Origin: Thermoproteota archaeon
GTDB lineage: Archaea; Korarchaeota; Korarchaeia; Korarchaeales; Korarchaeaceae
DNA: 33,140 nucleotides
Direction: 5' to 3'
Assembly (NCBI GenBank): GCA_027078475.1
Contig: JALWYH010000132.1
Coordinates: 1-33,140, forward strand
Shown here: piece after piece, positions 9,615 through 20,106 of the stretch
Position numbering within the stretch: position 1 is the first letter of the stretch
Layout: each line of letters begins with the position of its first letter
Notes under the pieces: model-generated
What the model was told of the DNA's origin: nothing
Database searches by the model: none
Seen by the model: only the letters and a program-made list of their open reading frames with translations
Made by a program: the position numbers and the translations under genes

Positions 9615-12600
9615 ATGAGAGGAAAATTCGCGATCTTGCTGATGTTTCTATTCCTGTTTCCAGCCTACGGAGTTGGTGCCAGTCCACCGAGAACGCTGGT
9701 GGTCCACACGGGCAGCGCCTGTACTACGGGCGATGCCTACTTCGACCTGCCAAGCGAGGCCTTGGCATCAGCCGCCCCTGGAGACACGGTGGTGATATGT
9801 CCGGGAACCTACAGGGACAACGTGAAGATCACCGTGAACGATGTGATGGTTAGGGGTCTTGGAGACCCGGGGGACGTGAGAATAGAGGCCCTTAACACGA
9901 CCCAGAACGTGATAGAGCTGTGGAACGTCAGGAATGTGACCGTTGAGAACCTGACTGCAGTCGGGGCTATCGGATCCCAGATGGCCGGGATACACGTCCA
10001 GCTCTCAAGCGAGAGTCACGTTAGGAACGTGATTGCCAGCGGCAACTACTTCGGGATAAACGTGGTTTCCAGCTCTAACATAACCCTGAGCGGTGTGGAG
10101 GCCGACAATAACACCAATGTGGGGATAAACCTGAAGGGATCAGTCATATCGTCGGTCACTGACTCGGCGACCTCAGGCAACAGAGTGGGACTTCTCCTCC
10201 TCTTCACATCGGAGAGCACCATTGAGGGGGTTAACGCCACCGGGAACTCGGAGGGAGGAATATTGCTTGAGTACTCGGCCAACAACACCTTCACGGGAGT
10301 GTTCTCATCGGAGAACGGATGGTACGGCATCTACCTGGAGGACTCGGACGGAAACTCGTTCTCGGAGGTGAGGCTGGAGAACAACACAGCATCTGGGAGC
10401 GACGGCTACGGGGCCTACATCTATCTCAGGTCGGGGAGTAACACCTTCTCGAACATGAGTGTGAGTGACAACGTCTACGGAGTGGCCTTCGTTTCAAGCT
10501 CCGATGGAAACGAGCTGACGAACTCCACCCTCCTCAACAACACCATAGCGGGTGTCTACGTGGAGGCCAGCGGCAACAACACCGTGAGGACCACCATAAA
10601 CGGTAGCATGTATGGAATCTGGATTCAGAACGGCAACGGTAACAGGGTCACTGACGGGGAGATAAGCGGCTGCAGGTGGGGGGTAATGATCTCCGGATCA
10701 TCGGGCTCATCCAACAACTCGATCAACGGCACATCCATTCACAACAACTCATACTCAGGCGTCGTGATCGAGGGTAATTCCTCCAGGGGCAATGTCGTCA
10801 CCATGGTGTCCACCTACAACAACACCCTCCTCGGGATCGATCTCGGCGGGGACTTCGTCACCCTCAACGACGGAGCCTTCTCGACGGGTCCCAACGACCT
10901 CATAGATTACCCGGTATTCGAGTGGGCCGCAGTTTACGGGGACAGGCTTATAGTCAGAGGGTACATAAACACCGAGGGCTCCGGAGACGGCAATCCGGCC
11001 CTCAACGGATCGACCGTAGAGATATACCAGGCCGACGGGGATCCCAGCGGTTACGGAGAGGGATTCAGGTATCTGGGCAGACTCACATCCCATGACGGCG
11101 AGTTCATGGGGTGGATCGATCTGCCGTCGGATCTGGTATCTAGGCCCATAAACATAACGGCCACGACCACGCTCCTGCCCCACGGCACGTCGGAGTTTGG
11201 CCCGGTCTACGAGGCCCCGCTGGTGGCCCCTAACCTGTCCATATCCAAATCGGTTAATCCGTCGACAGTGACACCCAACTCCACGGCCGAAGTCCTCCTG
11301 CTGATCAGTAACCATGGCAACGGGACGGCCTACAACGTGACGGTGACAGACGTGCTCCCGGATGGTATGGACTACATAAACGGCACTTCGAGGGTGGACG
11401 GGGACCTGATCGAGCCAGAAATAAGTGGCAGGAACCTCAGCTGGCTGGTGGACGTGCCGGCGGGCTCGGACGTCACCATAAGATTCAACGTCTCAGTGAC
11501 AGCTCCGGCTGGTTCCGTTCTCGAGAACGTGGCAGTCTTCAGGGGGGAGGATGGATCTGGAAACGACACCCAGGAAGTTCACGTCATAAGGCCCGCCATA
11601 ATAGGGGCCACCAAGGACGCCCATCCCGACTTGGTGGATGTCAACCAGACGGTCAATTATACGGTCGTTCTCTCCAACACTGGCGGTCTCTCAGCACTTC
11701 TCTTGGTTGATGACGCGCTTCCACCAGGGATGAGCTACGTGAACGGTTCCTTCTCCTCCAACGTATCTGTCGACGGTCCCGTCGTGTCGTCCGGGCACCT
11801 GAGGTACAACCTAACTCTAGATCCGGGGCATGCCGCCAGGATCTCGTACGCGCTCAGGGCAATAACCCCGGGAACCAAGCAGAACAGGGTTCACGTGAAT
11901 GGGACCTTCCTGGCCTCCGCCTCCGTCTTGGTGAGAGATCCACCATCCGGAGGGGATTCCGGTGGAGGTGGAGGGGGCAGCTCGTCCGACGATGACAATT
12001 CGGACGATGATTACACACCGCCGCCCTGCGGCTGGGTTCCCCCGCCGGGAGGTAGCACCGGATCCCAGGTGGAGGAGCCTGAGGAGCACCACAACTACAG
12101 ACTCACTCATCTACCAATAGTCCTCGTGTCGCTCGGCTCCCAGGGGATCTCCTACTCCAGCTCCAGCTCGACTCCCTCCTCTGGTTTCAGCTCCGGTGGC
12201 TCTGGCTCCGGGTCAGGAGGATCAACTGGCCAGTCCACGGGATCGCCGGCCTCGTCCGGGCCAAGGGGACTGCCCCTGATAGTGGTGGAGATCATGGCGA
12301 CGCCTGTGCTGGCGGAAACTGGGACGGTGGTGACATTCGTGGTCAGGGTCAGCAATATAGGGGATGGTCCGTCAGAAAACCTGTCCCTCACCGTCGACCT
12401 CACCAGTGGCCTCGACTACGTGAAGGGAAGCTCCATGGTCGGCGGAGTGAGGATGGAGCCAGATAATGAGAATAACAGGCTCACATGGCGTATAGGGGAG
12501 CTGACTCCCAACAGAGCAGTCGAGGTGAACTTCAGGGCCGAGCTCCTCGCCACTTCAGGGAGCTTCAATGTGGTCGCAAGGGCCTCCTCCAGCTCTGACA

Positions 12601-13514
12601 GCGTTCTGATATCGGTCAAACCCAAGTACAAGCCCTCGCCCCCGAAGCCCCCGGCACCGCCGCCCGAGGTGGTCGACCTCAACGCATCGGCCACGAGCTC
12701 GTCCAGGAGCGGCAGGATCAGGATCGTGCTCACGAGCCCCACGGGTGCTAAGGCGGTCAAGGTGGTGGCGACACTCGATCCCTCCCTCAGGTACGTCCAG
12801 GGTAGCGCCAGGATAGGAGGAATGCCATCCCCGCCCTCTGCAGGTGGGAACACCCTCGGATGGCAGCTCTCCATATCGAAGGGAGGCAGGGCAGTCATAA
12901 CCTTCGAGGTATCGCCTGCCAATGAGGACTCCACTGGAGGGAGCGTGCTGATCTCGCTTCCCAAGTACGGCAAGAGCGCCCGCGTGGAGGTGGAGTTCAC
13001 CCCAGCCCAGAGGGGGGTTGCCCCTCCACCTTCCTTCAGCATAGGGCTTCCCTCCCTCCCATCCATCCCATGGTGGGCGATCCTCTCTCCACTGATCCTC
13101 CTACCGGTCATCCTGGCTGTCAGGAGGAGAAAGGGGATCAAGAGGGTTGTCATGGACTACGAGGCGCTCAAGTGGGCCGTCAGGAGGGGGGTGCTCGAGG
13201 ACTTGGTGAGGGATCACGAGGTTCTCATACCCATGCAGACCTTCAATAAGCTGAGCAGGGACCGCTCGCTCATGGCCTCTGTGGAGAGGTTGATAGTGGA
13301 CAGGGCTATAAGGGTGGAGAAGGCACCCAAAAGAAGGATTGCAGTAAAGGGAGCAGACGAGGAGCTTTCGGCAGCTCTCGGGCTGGCGGACAGGGAAGGG
13401 ATACCGATCTACATAGGTAGGGAGGATCTACTGAAGGAGCTCAGGAGAAGGGGGTTCGACGCTAGGCTGATAAGAGAGGCCCCGCCTCCCATCCTGAGGA
13501 CGGATCTCCCCTGA
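9615..13514 (+). CDS. Large membrane-anchored surface protein: beta-helix, DUF11 repeats, cytoplasmic PIN-like tail
   Basis: The protein has 1299 residues. A signal peptide (about 1-22) precedes a parallel beta-helix of the NosD/PbH1 kind (about 30-425), rich in N-x-S/T sequons. An Ig-like segment (about 430-535) follows. Two DUF11-type domains lie at about 538-655 and 660-775, each with the LPDGMDYINGTSRVDG-type core. A Gly/Ser/Asp-rich linker (776-885) leads to two more DUF11-like domains (about 886-1000 and 1018-1130). One membrane helix (1152-1170) is followed by RRRKGIKR, which places the last 130 residues in the cytoplasm. That tail begins VVMDYEALKWA, contains HEVLIPMQTF, and ends with GADEELSAALGLADREGIPIYIGREDL, which resembles a PIN domain. 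Two of the acidic positions are kept (Asp1181, Asp1248), but the central Glu seems absent. The exodomains suggest a surface-layer or adhesion role. The PIN likeness is my inference. Confidence 0.9.
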   Translation: MRGKFAILLMFLFLFPAYGVGASPPRTLVVHTGSACTTGDAYFDLPSEALASAAPGDTVVICPGTYRDNVKITVNDVMVRGLGDPGDVRIEALNTTQNVIELWNVRNVTVENLTAVGAIGSQMAGIHVQLSSESHVRNVIASGNYFGINVVSSSNITLSGVEADNNTNVGINLKGSVISSVTDSATSGNRVGLLLLFTSESTIEGVNATGNSEGGILLEYSANNTFTGVFSSENGWYGIYLEDSDGNSFSEVRLENNTASGSDGYGAYIYLRSGSNTFSNMSVSDNVYGVAFVSSSDGNELTNSTLLNNTIAGVYVEASGNNTVRTTINGSMYGIWIQNGNGNRVTDGEISGCRWGVMISGSSGSSNNSINGTSIHNNSYSGVVIEGNSSRGNVVTMVSTYNNTLLGIDLGGDFVTLNDGAFSTGPNDLIDYPVFEWAAVYGDRLIVRGYINTEGSGDGNPALNGSTVEIYQADGDPSGYGEGFRYLGRLTSHDGEFMGWIDLPSDLVSRPINITATTTLLPHGTSEFGPVYEAPLVAPNLSISKSVNPSTVTPNSTAEVLLLISNHGNGTAYNVTVTDVLPDGMDYINGTSRVDGDLIEPEISGRNLSWLVDVPAGSDVTIRFNVSVTAPAGSVLENVAVFRGEDGSGNDTQEVHVIRPAIIGATKDAHPDLVDVNQTVNYTVVLSNTGGLSALLLVDDALPPGMSYVNGSFSSNVSVDGPVVSSGHLRYNLTLDPGHAARISYALRAITPGTKQNRVHVNGTFLASASVLVRDPPSGGDSGGGGGGSSSDDDNSDDDYTPPPCGWVPPPGGSTGSQVEEPEEHHNYRLTHLPIVLVSLGSQGISYSSSSSTPSSGFSSGGSGSGSGGSTGQSTGSPASSGPRGLPLIVVEIMATPVLAETGTVVTFVVRVSNIGDGPSENLSLTVDLTSGLDYVKGSSMVGGVRMEPDNENNRLTWRIGELTPNRAVEVNFRAELLATSGSFNVVARASSSSDSVLISVKPKYKPSPPKPPAPPPEVVDLNASATSSSRSGRIRIVLTSPTGAKAVKVVATLDPSLRYVQGSARIGGMPSPPSAGGNTLGWQLSISKGGRAVITFEVSPANEDSTGGSVLISLPKYGKSARVEVEFTPAQRGVAPPPSFSIGLPSLPSIPWWAILSPLILLPVILAVRRRKGIKRVVMDYEALKWAVRRGVLEDLVRDHEVLIPMQTFNKLSRDRSLMASVERLIVDRAIRVEKAPKRRIAVKGADEELSAALGLADREGIPIYIGREDLLKELRRRGFDARLIREAPPPILRTDLP

Positions 13515-13582: not shown

Positions 13583-15217
13583 TCATCCCCTTTTTATCTC
13601 GTCCGCGAGTCTCATCCTACCCTCGCTGAATATCCTCCCATCCATCTCCCTCAGGTTCCGGGAAATGATCGGTTTGAACTGCATCTTCTCCAGCACGTCC
13701 CTCTCTAGGTCAACGCCGGGCGCCACCTCCTCTAGGACGAGCCCCTCTCTGGTCAGCCTGAAGACCGCCCTCTCAGTTACGTAGAGTACATCCTTTCCCT
13801 CCTGAAGGGCGATCCTGCCGTTGAAGACTATCTTGTAGACTCTCCTCACGAACTTGATCACGTCACCGTCCTCCTCAATGACGAGCCTGCCCTCCCCGAC
13901 CCTGAATTTCTTCTTGCCCGCGGTGAATCCGCCCCCGAAGAAGACCCTGGGAGATCCAGCCGCTATGACGGGAAATCCGCCCGGGCCAGGCATCCTACCC
14001 GGCAGCATCGATGGGTTTACGTTCCCCTCCTCATCCACCTGCATGAATCCGAGCGAGGCCGCGTCTATGATCCCGCCCTCGTAATTGGTGAACATGTCCG
14101 GCATCGGTATGATGGCGAAGGGGCCTATGGAGACCCCGAAGTCCTCTCCCATGAGGGCGAGACCACCCCAAGGTCCGGACTCTATCGTCGTGACTATGTA
14201 GTCTGAGATGCCCTCCTCCGCCGCCACGTTGGTGACCAAGGCGGGTATCCCTATGCCCAAGTTCACCAGGATGGGTCCACCTCTCTCATTGACCAGTCGA
14301 ACCATCTCCAAGGCGATCCTCCTGGCTATAACCTTCCTCTCGTTGAGCTCCATCTTGGGGAGCAGACTCGGAGTTATGGGAGGTATTATGGTCCCGCTTA
14401 TCCTCGGGTCGTACATCACGGTGCCGCTCTGCCAGTGATACTGCGGCGGGGCCACCACAAGGTAGTCGACCAAGGGGCCGGGCACGTGTACACTCTTAGG
14501 ATTCAGCGAGCCGAACCTGGCCTCTCTCTCGACTTGGGCTATCACGATGCCAGGATCTGGCTGCGCCTTCGCCGCCTGAGCGATGGCTAGGACGGTTCCG
14601 AAGATCCCCTCCTTCTCCATGGTTATATTACCCATCTCATCGGCCGTCGTGCCCCTTATCATCGAGATATTCGGCTTAGGGGCCTCGTAGAATAGATACT
14701 CCTCTTCATCTATCTCTATGAGGGAGACGCGACAGGTCCTCCTCTCCCTCGCCAGATCGTTCATGGCCCCTCCATCCTGCCTGGGATCCAGGAAGGTTCC
14801 CCTCCCGATGGAGGTGAGGAGGCCCGGCCTCCCAGAGGCGACCTCCCTGAACCAGTAGGCTGCCATCCCTATGGACCAAGAGTAAAGCTCTATTCTGTTC
14901 TCCAAGGCAAGCTTCTGGATGTAGGGAGCCCAACCCGTGAACGGGAGGAGCATCCCCCTGATGAAGCTCTGACCCTCCTCCTCGTAGATCCTCCTTGCGA
15001 CGAAGTCCAGCGCCCTGTTAGGGGTCGCCGGCAGGGTGTCCGAGATTATGAAGAGGTCCGTGGGGTGGCCCGTATCCCTGTACCTCTCCCAGAGCTTCAT
15101 TATCAGATATTCCGGGGTCGTGGCCATGTTGAAACCGGAGATGGCGACAACGGAGCCATCTGGAATGTGGGAGAGGGCCTCATCCACTCCCACGAACTTG
15201 TTGTAGGGGAGAGACAT
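13583..15217 (-). CDS. Family I CoA-transferase with fused alpha and beta domains (acetate/propionate CoA-transferase-like)
   Basis: The 544-residue protein joins both halves of a family I CoA-transferase, as in Pct and YdiF. The first half contains FLDPRQDGGAMNDLARE and RGTTADEMGNITMEKEG, and the second has LVNLGIGIPALV. The catalytic glutamate is Glu346 in TTIESGPWGG, where a glutamyl-CoA thioester forms. Such enzymes move CoA between short-chain acids (acetate, propionate, lactate, 3-oxoacids), often at the end of amino-acid fermentation. Substrate choice cannot be read from sequence. I use ATG 15217, preceded by GGTGTTGGG. The frame also has a TTG at 15247, but that would lie upstream of the transcription start predicted from the TATA element at 15251-15257. 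It diverges from an ornithine cyclodeaminase family gene, perhaps a shared amino-acid catabolic unit. Confidence 0.9.
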   Translation of the reverse strand: MSLPYNKFVGVDEALSHIPDGSVVAISGFNMATTPEYLIMKLWERYRDTGHPTDLFIISDTLPATPNRALDFVARRIYEEEGQSFIRGMLLPFTGWAPYIQKLALENRIELYSWSIGMAAYWFREVASGRPGLLTSIGRGTFLDPRQDGGAMNDLARERRTCRVSLIEIDEEEYLFYEAPKPNISMIRGTTADEMGNITMEKEGIFGTVLAIAQAAKAQPDPGIVIAQVEREARFGSLNPKSVHVPGPLVDYLVVAPPQYHWQSGTVMYDPRISGTIIPPITPSLLPKMELNERKVIARRIALEMVRLVNERGGPILVNLGIGIPALVTNVAAEEGISDYIVTTIESGPWGGLALMGEDFGVSIGPFAIIPMPDMFTNYEGGIIDAASLGFMQVDEEGNVNPSMLPGRMPGPGGFPVIAAGSPRVFFGGGFTAGKKKFRVGEGRLVIEEDGDVIKFVRRVYKIVFNGRIALQEGKDVLYVTERAVFRLTREGLVLEEVAPGVDLERDVLEKMQFKPIISRNLREMDGRIFSEGRMRLADEIKRG

Positions 15218-15250
15218 CCCAACACCATTGTGATATTGTATGTTCAAAGA

Positions 15251-16295: not shown

Positions 16296-17090
16296 GGACT
16301 GAGCTGGGTGCAGAGGGTATTCGTGGAGAGAGCTGATCTTTACATCGAGATCATGAACGGGACCTGGTCCGAGGGGGAGCAGATAGCCAGGTCCATAGTG
16401 AGGATCCTGAGGGAGAACGGGCTCGACTCCGGGAGGATCTTAGACGCCTTCTGCGGTAACGGCAGAGTGGCCATCCCCTTGGCCATGGAGGGATACGAGG
16501 TGGTGGGCGTCGACATCTCGCTCCCCTTCATAGAGGACGCGAGGCAGAAGGCAGAGAGGTACAGGGTCTCCGAGAGGACCAAGTTCGTGGTCTCCGACGC
16601 CCGGATGATAGATCGAGTGCTTGAGGGGGAGAAGTTCGACGCGGTAATAATAGTGTCTACTTCCTTGGGCTACTACGACGGGACCACAGACGAGGAGATA
16701 TTGAGGAAGCTCAGGTCCCTGGCTAAGGACGGGGCCATCCTGATAATAGCGAACACCCTTCACAGGGAGACTCCCGACTGGAGGTACTGTAACAGGACAT
16801 TCCAGAGGTATGGCTCCCTCCTCCTGATGGAGGAGAGGAGGTTTGACCCCCTCTGGTCTAGGCTGACGTCGAAGTGGATCATCCTGAGGGATGATGGCGA
16901 GGGAAACCTGAACAAGGAGCTGGAGGTGAACACCGACATGAGGGTCTACACATCTACCGAGCTGGCCGAGATACTGAGGAAGGCCGGATGGGGGGTGGAC
17001 TCCATATACGGCGACATAAGGAGGATGGAGAAGTTCATGCCCCCGTGCACTCACCTAAGCCTGGTCGCCAAGGCCATCCAGACAGGCTAG
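16290..17090 (+). CDS. SAM-dependent class I methyltransferase (266 aa)
   Basis: The Rossmann methyltransferase motifs are clear. Motif I is ILDAFCGNGRVAIPLAMEGY, the acidic end of strand 2 is VVGVDIS, and the post-motif VVSDARMID and motif IV region FDAVIIVSTSLGYYD follow. The C-terminal half contains a beta-rich region and YTSTELAEILRKAGW, as in small-molecule or tRNA/protein methyltransferases of the Methyltransf_11/25 type. The substrate cannot be told. I place the start at GTG 16290, directly at the distance expected from the TATA box; GTG 16308 and ATG 16350 are later options. Its last 36 bases overlap the 3' end of tmcA on the other strand. That overlap forces both C-termini to share DNA and may create antisense transcript ends. 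Confidence 0.82.
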   Translation: MAGLSWVQRVFVERADLYIEIMNGTWSEGEQIARSIVRILRENGLDSGRILDAFCGNGRVAIPLAMEGYEVVGVDISLPFIEDARQKAERYRVSERTKFVVSDARMIDRVLEGEKFDAVIIVSTSLGYYDGTTDEEILRKLRSLAKDGAILIIANTLHRETPDWRYCNRTFQRYGSLLLMEERRFDPLWSRLTSKWIILRDDGEGNLNKELEVNTDMRVYTSTELAEILRKAGWGVDSIYGDIRRMEKFMPPCTHLSLVAKAIQTG

Positions 17091-19250
17091 GAGGTTCCTC
17101 ACCAGCTCCCTGAACATCTCGTAGGGATCCACCTTGAGGCCGAACCTCGACCTCACCATTTCCCAGCCCTTCCCCTGAAGCACCTTGGCCAGGAGGATCG
17201 AGTCCTCCAGCGTGGTCAGGCAGTCCCTCCCCAGCCAGAAGTAGTGCCTCGCCAGCTCGTATATGGCGTCGGAGGCGAGCTCGTATATGTACGTCCCTCT
17301 GACGAAGCCCATCAACCTGCTTCTTTGAGACTGGCTGAGCCTGAGCCTCCCGGAGGGAAGGGGGGTCTTGAGGAGGTGCCTCGCCACCACTGGATTCAAG
17401 GGGAAATAAACGTCGTGCAAGCTGTTGAGGAGCCTCCTCTTGAACTCCTTCACTATCTCCCCAAGGAGGTTTCGGGCCTTGCCGCTGAGGGGCTTCACCA
17501 CCAGGACGCTGTATTCTCCAGTCACCGGGTTCCTCCTCGGACTTATGTGAATGGGGATGTAGTCGTTCCTCACCCAGAATCTGAGGAGATCGTCTGTCGC
17601 CCCGAATCCAGCTCCCACCCAATCAATCCCCTCCGAGAGAGCCTCGCCCTCTACCTCCTCCAAGGCTCGGGTCCCGAAGCCCCTCCCCTGGAGATCTGGG
17701 TGAGTGGCTATCCTGACGATCCTCCAGCCCCTGAGCCTCCCGAAGGACTTGAAGTCGTAGTGCAGGACCACCCTCGAGGGTATCATGTGACCCGGCAGGT
17801 CCCTCCTCCCCTCCATCATGTCCTCGAGGATCCTGTTGGGAAGACCGCCCTCCTCGGCCAGGTGCAGGCTCACCACCGGCTCTCCCGATAGGCTGAGCAC
17901 CCTGGCGAAGTGATGAGGGGCGTCCAGAAGGGTGGCCAGGTCGTTCGGCCTGTTCCTGTAGTGAGCCAGCACGTATATCCCGTAGAATTTCCTCAGGAAA
18001 CCCTCGTCCACCCCCTCTAGGTCCAGGCGCTCGTAAACCGCCTCCTCCGGCTCTCCCTCGGGGGGCTCTTCCGGCTCGGCGTTGAGGAGGAGGAAGTCGT
18101 AGAGCCACGCCTCGACGGGATCGCCTGGAGGATACCTGATCGGTTCCTCCATCCTCTCCTCGACGAATGGGAGGTTCGAATTCCTGATCCTCCTCAGGAA
18201 CCTCAGGGTGAATCCCCTTCCGGCCCCCTCGTACCCGTGGACGGTGCTGGAGAAGATGGCGAACCTGCTGCTGTGCAGTATCCTGAAGAGGGTGGAGATG
18301 GGTATGGCTGCCGCCTCGTCGACCACCTTCAGCCTCACCCCGACCTCGGCGGCGCTGTCCGGGGTTAGGTAGAAGACGTTACCGTCCCTGAACCTGACGT
18401 CTATCACGTGTCCGTTCCTTATCAGGGGCTCGTACTTCACCCCGAGGCTGTCGAATCCCTTCATCAGGAACTGGAAGAGGGTCTGTATCCCCTCCATGCT
18501 GGGCGACGTCACCACGGCCCTCCTCATCTTGGTCTTGGTGACTATGCGGGCCAGAGCCAGCCCGATGACGGCTGACTTGCCCCTCCCCCTGTTGGCCGTC
18601 AGGATGAACGCCCTCTTCCTTGAACCAGCGGCCTCCACCAGCGATGAGAAGACCCTCTGCTGGTCCAAGGTGGCGCAGAGATCGAGGAGGGGATCGCCGG
18701 TCCTCTCGGGAGGGGTCCTCTTCCCCGAGAGCCTGCCGACGAGCTGCCCCCTGATCTCCCCATCCATGAGAAAGGTGCCGGGCCTGCCCAAGAAGGAGAG
18801 GAACCTCCGCTTGAACAGCTGCCTCACTCCCCTGTCCTCGAAGGGGGGCACCAGGAACCTCCTCTGGAACTCGGTCAGGGTCGAGAGCCAGTCCTCCACC
18901 GGGGGGATGGTCAGGAGGATCAGACCTCCACCCCGGATCACCTCCACCAGCCTCCCGAGATCGTTGGCGCGGAACTGCCTTGATAGATCGGCTATCAGGA
19001 CATCCCAGGTCCCTCCTAGGATCTCGCCGGTCTGGTCGAAGTCTATGGAGGTGAGGCTCGCCTCGTCCACGTCCACCCTCTCGGTGCCGATTCCCCTGTG
19101 GGTTGCCAGGAGGACTCTACCTCCCCCATTCCTACTGATCCACTCCTTAGCTATGTCCGAGGCCCTCTCCAGGGAGTCCACGGAGCTTATGGTCAGGAGC
19201 CTCCTCTCACCCGTGATCAGGGCCTCCTCGACTACATCCCTGGGTTCCAC
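17055..19250 (-). CDS. tmcA: tRNA(Met) cytidine acetyltransferase TmcA
   Basis: This is the archaeal/bacterial TmcA (relative of eukaryotic NAT10/Kre33), which makes N4-acetylcytidine in RNA using acetyl-CoA and ATP. The order of parts is typical: an N-terminal DUF1726-like domain, then a RecD-like ATPase domain with Walker A ILTANRGRGKSAVIG (around residues 216-230) and Walker B VVDEAAAIP. The GNAT acetyltransferase domain follows with RIATHPDLQGRGFGTRALEE, and the protein ends with an RNA-binding tail. The frame extends to ATG 19289. GTG 19250 has an ideal GGGAGGT site six bases upstream and starts just after the stop of the preceding gene, so I prefer it (731 residues). In thermophiles the enzyme may also modify rRNA at many sites. 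The 3' end overlaps the methyltransferase gene by 36 bases. Confidence 0.93.
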   Translation of the reverse strand: MEPRDVVEEALITGERRLLTISSVDSLERASDIAKEWISRNGGGRVLLATHRGIGTERVDVDEASLTSIDFDQTGEILGGTWDVLIADLSRQFRANDLGRLVEVIRGGGLILLTIPPVEDWLSTLTEFQRRFLVPPFEDRGVRQLFKRRFLSFLGRPGTFLMDGEIRGQLVGRLSGKRTPPERTGDPLLDLCATLDQQRVFSSLVEAAGSRKRAFILTANRGRGKSAVIGLALARIVTKTKMRRAVVTSPSMEGIQTLFQFLMKGFDSLGVKYEPLIRNGHVIDVRFRDGNVFYLTPDSAAEVGVRLKVVDEAAAIPISTLFRILHSSRFAIFSSTVHGYEGAGRGFTLRFLRRIRNSNLPFVEERMEEPIRYPPGDPVEAWLYDFLLLNAEPEEPPEGEPEEAVYERLDLEGVDEGFLRKFYGIYVLAHYRNRPNDLATLLDAPHHFARVLSLSGEPVVSLHLAEEGGLPNRILEDMMEGRRDLPGHMIPSRVVLHYDFKSFGRLRGWRIVRIATHPDLQGRGFGTRALEEVEGEALSEGIDWVGAGFGATDDLLRFWVRNDYIPIHISPRRNPVTGEYSVLVVKPLSGKARNLLGEIVKEFKRRLLNSLHDVYFPLNPVVARHLLKTPLPSGRLRLSQSQRSRLMGFVRGTYIYELASDAIYELARHYFWLGRDCLTTLEDSILLAKVLQGKGWEMVRSRFGLKVDPYEMFRELVRNLLACLDGLGDQA

Positions 19251-19254
19251 AAAC

Positions 19255-20106
19255 CTACCTCCCGTATAGCTCCCTCCTCCTGGCCTCAAGCAGGTCGTTC
19301 CTCATTCCGGATGCCTCGGCCGCAGTCCTGAACCTGTTCGAGATGGCGGGCATCCTGCTCCTGAAGTCCAGCTCCCTGCACAGATGATGATCCAGGATCA
19401 AGAGCTCCAGTGACGGCAGCTCCAGTATCTCCCTCAGGTTCTCCTCGGCCGCCCTGAGGCTGTCCCCCGAGTACCTGAAGCCCAGCATGTAGGTCATCGG
19501 ACCATCGACCACCGCCACGTGGGGATCAGCTCTGAGGACGAACTCCGCCTGCTCACGCAGCGACGGGCCTTCCACGTCTGAGGAGAAGAGGAATCTCTCA
19601 CCTTGGCTCTCCACCAGAACCTCTATCACGTAGCCGAGCCTTGTGTTGGTACCGTGGGGGACGGCTCGCGAGAACCTGATGGTGGTGGATCCGTAGGTGA
19701 ACTCGCGGCCGTCCGCGAACTCGATCCTCCCGGGAAGGCCCTCTATGCTCCTCAGGAAGAGGGGCGCCCTCTCAACCCTCTGGCTCCTGTTTATGTTCTC
19801 CCTTGGATGCTTTATCAGCACGTCCTTCCCCTCGTATATTGAGAGGGAGATCTTCCTGCCCAGATCGAAGTGGTCGTAGTGGTAGTGGGTGATCACTATC
19901 ACGTCAGAGTCCCTCCCCTCCTCCTCGATCACCCGGGCCAGCTCCATCATCCTCTCCACCTCCCTCTCGTGAGGGGGGAGCCCGAACCTCCTTGGGGCGA
20001 GCGCCACGCTTGGGTCTATTAGTACCTTCACGTCGCCCGTCTCCACCACGGTTGCCATGCTCCTGACTCCCATACTGTCGAAGGCCAGCAGCCTGAAGCT
20101 CAGCAA
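19255..20106 (-). CDS. UPF0282-type metallo-beta-lactamase-fold hydrolase
   Basis: The 283-residue protein shows the metal site ITHYHYDHFD (His74, His76, Asp78, His79) of the metallo-beta-lactamase fold. Later ligands are VPHGTNT and LFSSDVEGP, and LLILDHHLCR occurs near the end. Length and motif variants match the archaeal UPF0282 (COG2248) family, whose function is not established; the fold suggests a metal-dependent hydrolase, possibly on nucleic acid. It overlaps the stop of pyrD by 7 bases and is followed after a few bases by tmcA. It therefore belongs to the scpB-pyrD-tmcA transcription unit. Confidence 0.85.
   Translation of the reverse strand: MLSFRLLAFDSMGVRSMATVVETGDVKVLIDPSVALAPRRFGLPPHEREVERMMELARVIEEEGRDSDVIVITHYHYDHFDLGRKISLSIYEGKDVLIKHPRENINRSQRVERAPLFLRSIEGLPGRIEFADGREFTYGSTTIRFSRAVPHGTNTRLGYVIEVLVESQGERFLFSSDVEGPSLREQAEFVLRADPHVAVVDGPMTYMLGFRYSGDSLRAAEENLREILELPSLELLILDHHLCRELDFRSRMPAISNRFRTAAEASGMRNDLLEARRRELYGR

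Follow-up and report, generated by a model that had tools for sequence, protein, structure and literature searches.

A degenerate PIN-like domain predicted behind the membrane helix of archaeal surface proteins in two phyla

The window, which is the whole stretch of 33,140 nucleotides analysed here, contains a gene for a large surface protein whose features are collected in Table 1. In Pfam the exodomain matches Beta_helix (E 2e-25), NosD (E 4e-23) and, in three stretches, DUF11 (E 2e-26), and NCBIfam agrees with Pfam on this content; no S-layer family is among the exodomain matches in either collection, which are to Beta_helix, NosD and DUF11 only. The original prediction had described an exodomain joined by one membrane helix to a cytoplasmic tail of about 130 residues, and this arrangement is what the gene encodes, with every motif quoted in it present.

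Table 1. Coordinates of the surface protein gene and its features in the window.
Feature	Coordinates	Strand	Basis
Surface protein gene, 1299 aa, ATG start	9615..13514	+	Open reading frame; orthologues; synteny
Signal peptide, residues 1-23, MRGKFAILLMFLFLFPAYGVGAS	9615..9683	+	Hydropathy (stretch 5-23)
Right-handed beta-helix / NosD-like repeats, about residues 48-363	9756..10703	+	Pfam, NCBIfam
Best DUF11 stretch, residues 541-654; more DUF11-type stretches downstream in exodomain	11235..11576	+	Pfam; NCBIfam TIGR01451
Single transmembrane helix, residues 1151-1169	13065..13121	+	Hydropathy peak 2.19
Stop-transfer / positive-inside cluster RRRKGIKR, residues 1170-1177	13122..13145	+	RRR or KKKK in relatives
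Predicted PIN-like cytosolic domain, about residues 1176-1286	13140..13472	+	AlphaFold2 model, Foldseek, hhalign
Asp1181 codon, sole acid kept at a PIN catalytic position, Tyr next	13155..13157	+	Alignment
Lys1212 codon in place of second PIN acid	13248..13250	+	Alignment; Glu in 10/10 ordinary PINs
Leu1251 codon in place of third PIN acid	13365..13367	+	hhalign, joint alignment
Gly1268-Arg1269 codons in place of fourth acid (DD in many ordinary PINs)	13416..13421	+	hhalign, joint alignment

The signal peptide, the one C-terminal transmembrane helix and the positive-inside bias are those of a single-pass surface protein, as judged by simple hydropathy and a charge count rather than by a trained predictor. 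The net charge is +1 in the 15 residues preceding the helix and +4 in the 15 residues past it. Signal peptide and charge bias together indicate an N-out/C-in orientation, and therefore the tail is predicted by the positive-inside rule to be cytosolic, directly behind the membrane helix; an outside location, which would have contradicted the original prediction, is not indicated.

Orthologues of 1258-1319 aa with the same tail are present in 13 of the 16 genomes of the genus, and the three genomes without one are 63-86% complete. In most genomes the gene order is leuS-HAD-topA-[surface gene]-CoA-transferase-methyltransferase-tmcA-pyrD. The two flanking genes, topA and the CoA-transferase gene, lie on the opposite strand, 98 and 68 bp away. 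The conserved order points to an old chromosomal gene with no obvious operon partner. Neither a small antitoxin gene, as in VapBC (flanks and synteny inspected), nor a PIN gene adjoins the locus. The opposite-strand gene directly downstream (13583-15247) encodes a FadX-like CoA-transferase (E 4e-91, under the curated cut-off), and within the syntenic block 17055-19289 encodes a TmcA-like tRNA(Met) cytidine acetyltransferase, also under the curated cut-off. In one assembly (G015) the surface gene occurs twice (L022 and L023), possibly owing to a strain mixture, with one copy ending at a contig end.

For three orthologues with useful divergence, the dN/dS (Nei-Gojobori) is 0.057-0.069 in the tail and 0.076-0.108 in the beta-helix, values that are rough because dS is near saturation. 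In two very close pairs the tail value is higher (0.16 and 0.42), with few changes. In near relatives the tail has a higher protein identity than the exodomain; in distant ones its identity is similar or lower. The tail is thus under purifying selection and is not a decaying remnant, and the selection is not clearly stronger than that on the exodomain. With orthologues in 13 of 16 genomes, a conserved gene order and a dN/dS of about 0.06, the tail is more than a product of chance.

The AlphaFold2 model computed from 15 tails (pLDDT 80.6, pTM 0.72) has the strand-helix order E-HH-E-HH-E-H-E-H-E. Its best PDB matches by Foldseek are PIN proteins, or larger proteins containing a PIN domain: SSO1118, VapC4, AF0591, PAE2754 and the Thermus domain 3ix7 are matched with probabilities of 0.99-1.00 and query TM-scores of 0.5-0.65, at modest E-values (best 2e-4). 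The RuvB-like helicase 5f4h, also matched, presumably carries a PIN domain. By hhalign, the window orthologues align over tail residues 2-116 with ten archaeal PINs labelled DUF3368-type by sequence pattern (probability 93%, E 3.3e-7). The probability rises to 97.2% (E 4.5e-11) when the tails of both phyla discussed below are used, and is 95.5% against a mixed PIN set. A PDB profile search with the tails returns the Nob1 PIN (2lcq, E 2e-4), and in tail-profile searches ordinary PIN proteins of about 120-210 aa also come up throughout the archaea. Pfam gives no match for the tail itself; single-tail Pfam scans gave nothing useful, a PDB search with a single tail sequence gave chance matches only, and one scanned DUF3368-type PIN itself matched Pfam PIN-TPR-GreABC weakly. 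The PIN topology claimed in the original prediction, for which structure prediction had been proposed as the check, is thus borne out by model and Foldseek, by profile-profile comparison and by the Nob1 match, and we conclude that the tail is predicted to have a PIN-like fold homologous to PIN families.

The catalytic positions of this fold were placed by joint alignment with the ten ordinary PINs and by hhalign. With Val1169 taken as tail residue 1, they correspond to D13, K44, L83 and G100/R101. Position 44 is Glu in all ten ordinary PINs and E/D in 3 of 21 tails in the joint alignment; every orthologue has Lys there, and of 24 tails compared within the phylum 19 have K/R. An acid lies at or beside position 83 in 10/10 ordinary PINs. 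PIN nucleases use three to four metal-binding acids, of which the window tail keeps one in four, so that the earlier remark that the central acidic residue appeared lost was an understatement: three of the four are absent in the window protein. Some relatives' tails retain two or three acids in the joint alignment, and in one lineage of the second phylum (L171, L178) the first Asp is also gone. Given the loss at these positions, the domain is predicted to be catalytically dead, and with most of the acid tetrad gone it is not credible as a nuclease. The description "nuclease-like" fits the predicted fold but is not supported for an activity, given the consistent replacement of the second acid by a basic residue.

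The tail is not confined to this gene. Profile searches find the same succession of transmembrane helix, RRR and DY tail on giant surface proteins of 2546-3328 aa within the phylum. A 2670 aa protein with a related tail occurs in another of its families, further tail-bearing frames range from 842 to 3206 aa, some of them ended by contig edges, and a full-length protein search of contigs gave five named loci. L037 (992 aa) was dropped, the matched part excluding the TM/DY region. The genome of the window itself encodes a giant paralogue of 3328 aa (L140:1539-11522, G000:C12) with one DUF11 match, a weak beta-helix and a PIN-like tail that is shortened. The small and giant tail genes are separated by about 35-41 kb in three contiguous genomes (G009:C1, 240.7k/278.0k; G011:C2, 142.2k/183.4k; G012:C2, 55.7k/21.1k). 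Genomes of the phylum also encode soluble PIN proteins. The tails of the paralogues are 14-29% identical to the window tail; across the paralogues of the phylum D13 is invariant and Y14, T41 and D48 are near-invariant, all four being placed near the edge of the former active site by alignment with ordinary PINs. Many giant-protein tails are without the last beta-alpha-beta unit, which means that not every tail requires the fold in full.

A search for the same helix-plus-tail arrangement in other archaeal surface proteins, which the original prediction had proposed, reveals a family that it had missed, spread over multiple proteins and two phyla. Among the 29 genomes covered from a second archaeal phylum, at least 15 surface proteins carry a related tail behind varied exodomains, with DUF11/Ig-like, Cys-rich repeat or other regions followed by a transmembrane helix, a basic cluster (RRKK, KKKK or RRTK) and the PIN-like tail. 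The tails of the two phyla match each other in profile comparison (97%, E 1e-10), and the model of the second-phylum tail (pLDDT 89.3) again returns PINs in Foldseek; the two sets are homologous. Three proteins of the second phylum (L171, L172, L178) have Cys-rich exodomains of CSDGVKNQxETDVDCGGPC-like repeats ahead of helix and tail, and one (L181:1516-2181, G401:C234) has two PIN-like tails in tandem behind a single transmembrane helix, each starting with KKKK. Elsewhere among archaea, samples of about 394 genomes each gave no anchored tail, only ordinary soluble PINs, an absence that is provisional because frame length and the matched part decided the reading of most rows. Three frames of about 530-630 aa from beyond these phyla (L234, L235 and L236) were inspected, others of that size (G319, G045 and G382) being left out, and are PIN-ATPase proteins, not anchored tails; L209 and L211 are chance matches.

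The tails resemble several known systems and differ from each. With DUF3368-type and VapC-like archaeal PINs and the Nob1 PIN they have in common the fold and sequence profile, the Asp ending strand 1, the IP strand before helix 3 and the last helix-strand-helix unit; those proteins, however, are soluble and have the acid tetrad, whereas the tails are anchored behind exodomains and have lost most of it. TTHA0540 of Thermus, which we take to be the source of 3ix7, has a PIN domain close to the tails by Foldseek. It is considered here together with the YacL-type PIN-TRAM proteins, which are attached to the membrane; no large exodomain is known in this group. TTHA0540 carries a TRAM domain (PMC4229858), which is absent from the tails; in the window protein Pfam finds no TRAM past the PIN-like domain, and about 14 residues follow the last modelled PIN strand before the chain stops. 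Archaeal DUF11 and NosD-like surface proteins have the exodomain architecture and C-terminal transmembrane helix of the window protein. They usually end in a short tail after that helix, whereas in the tail-bearing proteins the helix is followed by about 95-160 aa that form a folded domain. No description of an architecture of surface protein, transmembrane helix and PIN domain was found in the literature searched, which comprised open-licence papers only. Little is known of how the surface proteins of archaea are held and organized from inside, and they are usually drawn as a transmembrane helix with a few residues; a conserved, folded, nuclease-derived cytosolic domain that recurs on several surface proteins in two phyla offers a concrete handle on what joins the archaeal envelope to the cytoplasm, and the PIN superfamily gains a membrane-anchored, apparently non-catalytic branch.

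What would a disused PIN domain do on the inner side of the membrane? We propose that in the two phyla a PIN-like domain without its former catalytic metal site has been retained on the cytosolic side of membrane-anchored surface proteins and reused there for dimerization or docking, an explanation that we consider probable by a modest measure. The tail would be a protein-protein module, acting through PIN-PIN dimerization or by docking a shared cytosolic partner, and might thus group, immobilize or position surface proteins from inside. The retained Asp and the Lys that took the place of the second acid may form a charge pair that substitutes for the metal and keeps the old active site closed. 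Counted in favor of the module, besides the predicted fold, its homology to PINs, the lost acids and the purifying selection described above, are the presence of the same tail after the membrane helix of several non-orthologous surface proteins and the isolation of the gene. Inactive PINs that work through contacts have precedents: the catalytically inactive PIN of SMG5 completes SMG6 (PMC12923823), and the degenerate, non-catalytic PIN of Utp23 packs on and binds rRNA (PMC12095548). In both, the PIN fold has outlived catalysis, as predicted for the tails, and serves protein or RNA contacts; SMG5 and Utp23 are eukaryotic RNA-processing factors, whereas the tails belong to transmembrane surface proteins. 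Against the module count the shortened giant tails and the two close pairs without a lower tail dN/dS. A bolder form, in which the dead PIN is a transmembrane coupling module recruiting a common partner in both phyla (an active PIN, RNA or a cytoskeletal protein), is no better than a tentative possibility; if true, it would connect the interior of the cell with the protein coat outside.

An alternative interpretation is that the tail is an inert cytosolic plug, any stable small fold being able to anchor the exodomain or help insert it, with the PIN origin accidental and no partner involved. The strong divergence among paralogue tails and the shortened C-terminal half of many giants agree with this, and a plug that merely blocks pull-out would look alike in the present data. 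However, a pure plug should be exchangeable for other folds, whereas one fold is kept in two phyla, and among the paralogues of the phylum D13 and its three near-invariant companions persist; we regard the plug as unlikely, if a serious competitor. Distinctly less probable is an RNA- or nucleotide-binding tail, in which the dead PIN would connect mRNA, ribosomes or a signal with the envelope. RNA binding is common among PIN folds, even the degenerate one of Utp23 being capable of it, and the window tail has a mildly basic net charge of +4, but in the giant-protein tails the net charge is acidic in most cases (-2 to -9, with one at +1), and the tails carry no TRAM, KH or other RNA-binding domain. 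The tails of relatives span net +7 to -11, so there is no shared basic charge, and RNA binding based on charge is not supported as a property of the family. The surface sensor that the original prediction envisaged is a conjecture.

It is very doubtful that the tail, in place of the dimerization or docking module preferred above, is a pseudo-PIN pairing at the membrane with a separate active PIN nuclease in the way of SMG5 with SMG6: soluble PIN proteins of the phylum could supply such a partner and there is precedent for a dead PIN that completes the active site of another protein (PMC12923823), but no PIN gene adjoins the locus. A nuclease bound to the membrane and active despite a changed active site, for which the Asp13 invariant in the phylum and the two or three acids of some relatives would speak, is ruled out as far as acid positions can predict and deserves hardly any credence, given one acid of four with Lys for Glu in the window tail and the loss of even the first Asp in the L171/L178 lineage. 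A horizontal cassette or a toxin delivery system is ruled out by the vertically inherited syntenic locus, the signal peptide and the inside position of the tail.
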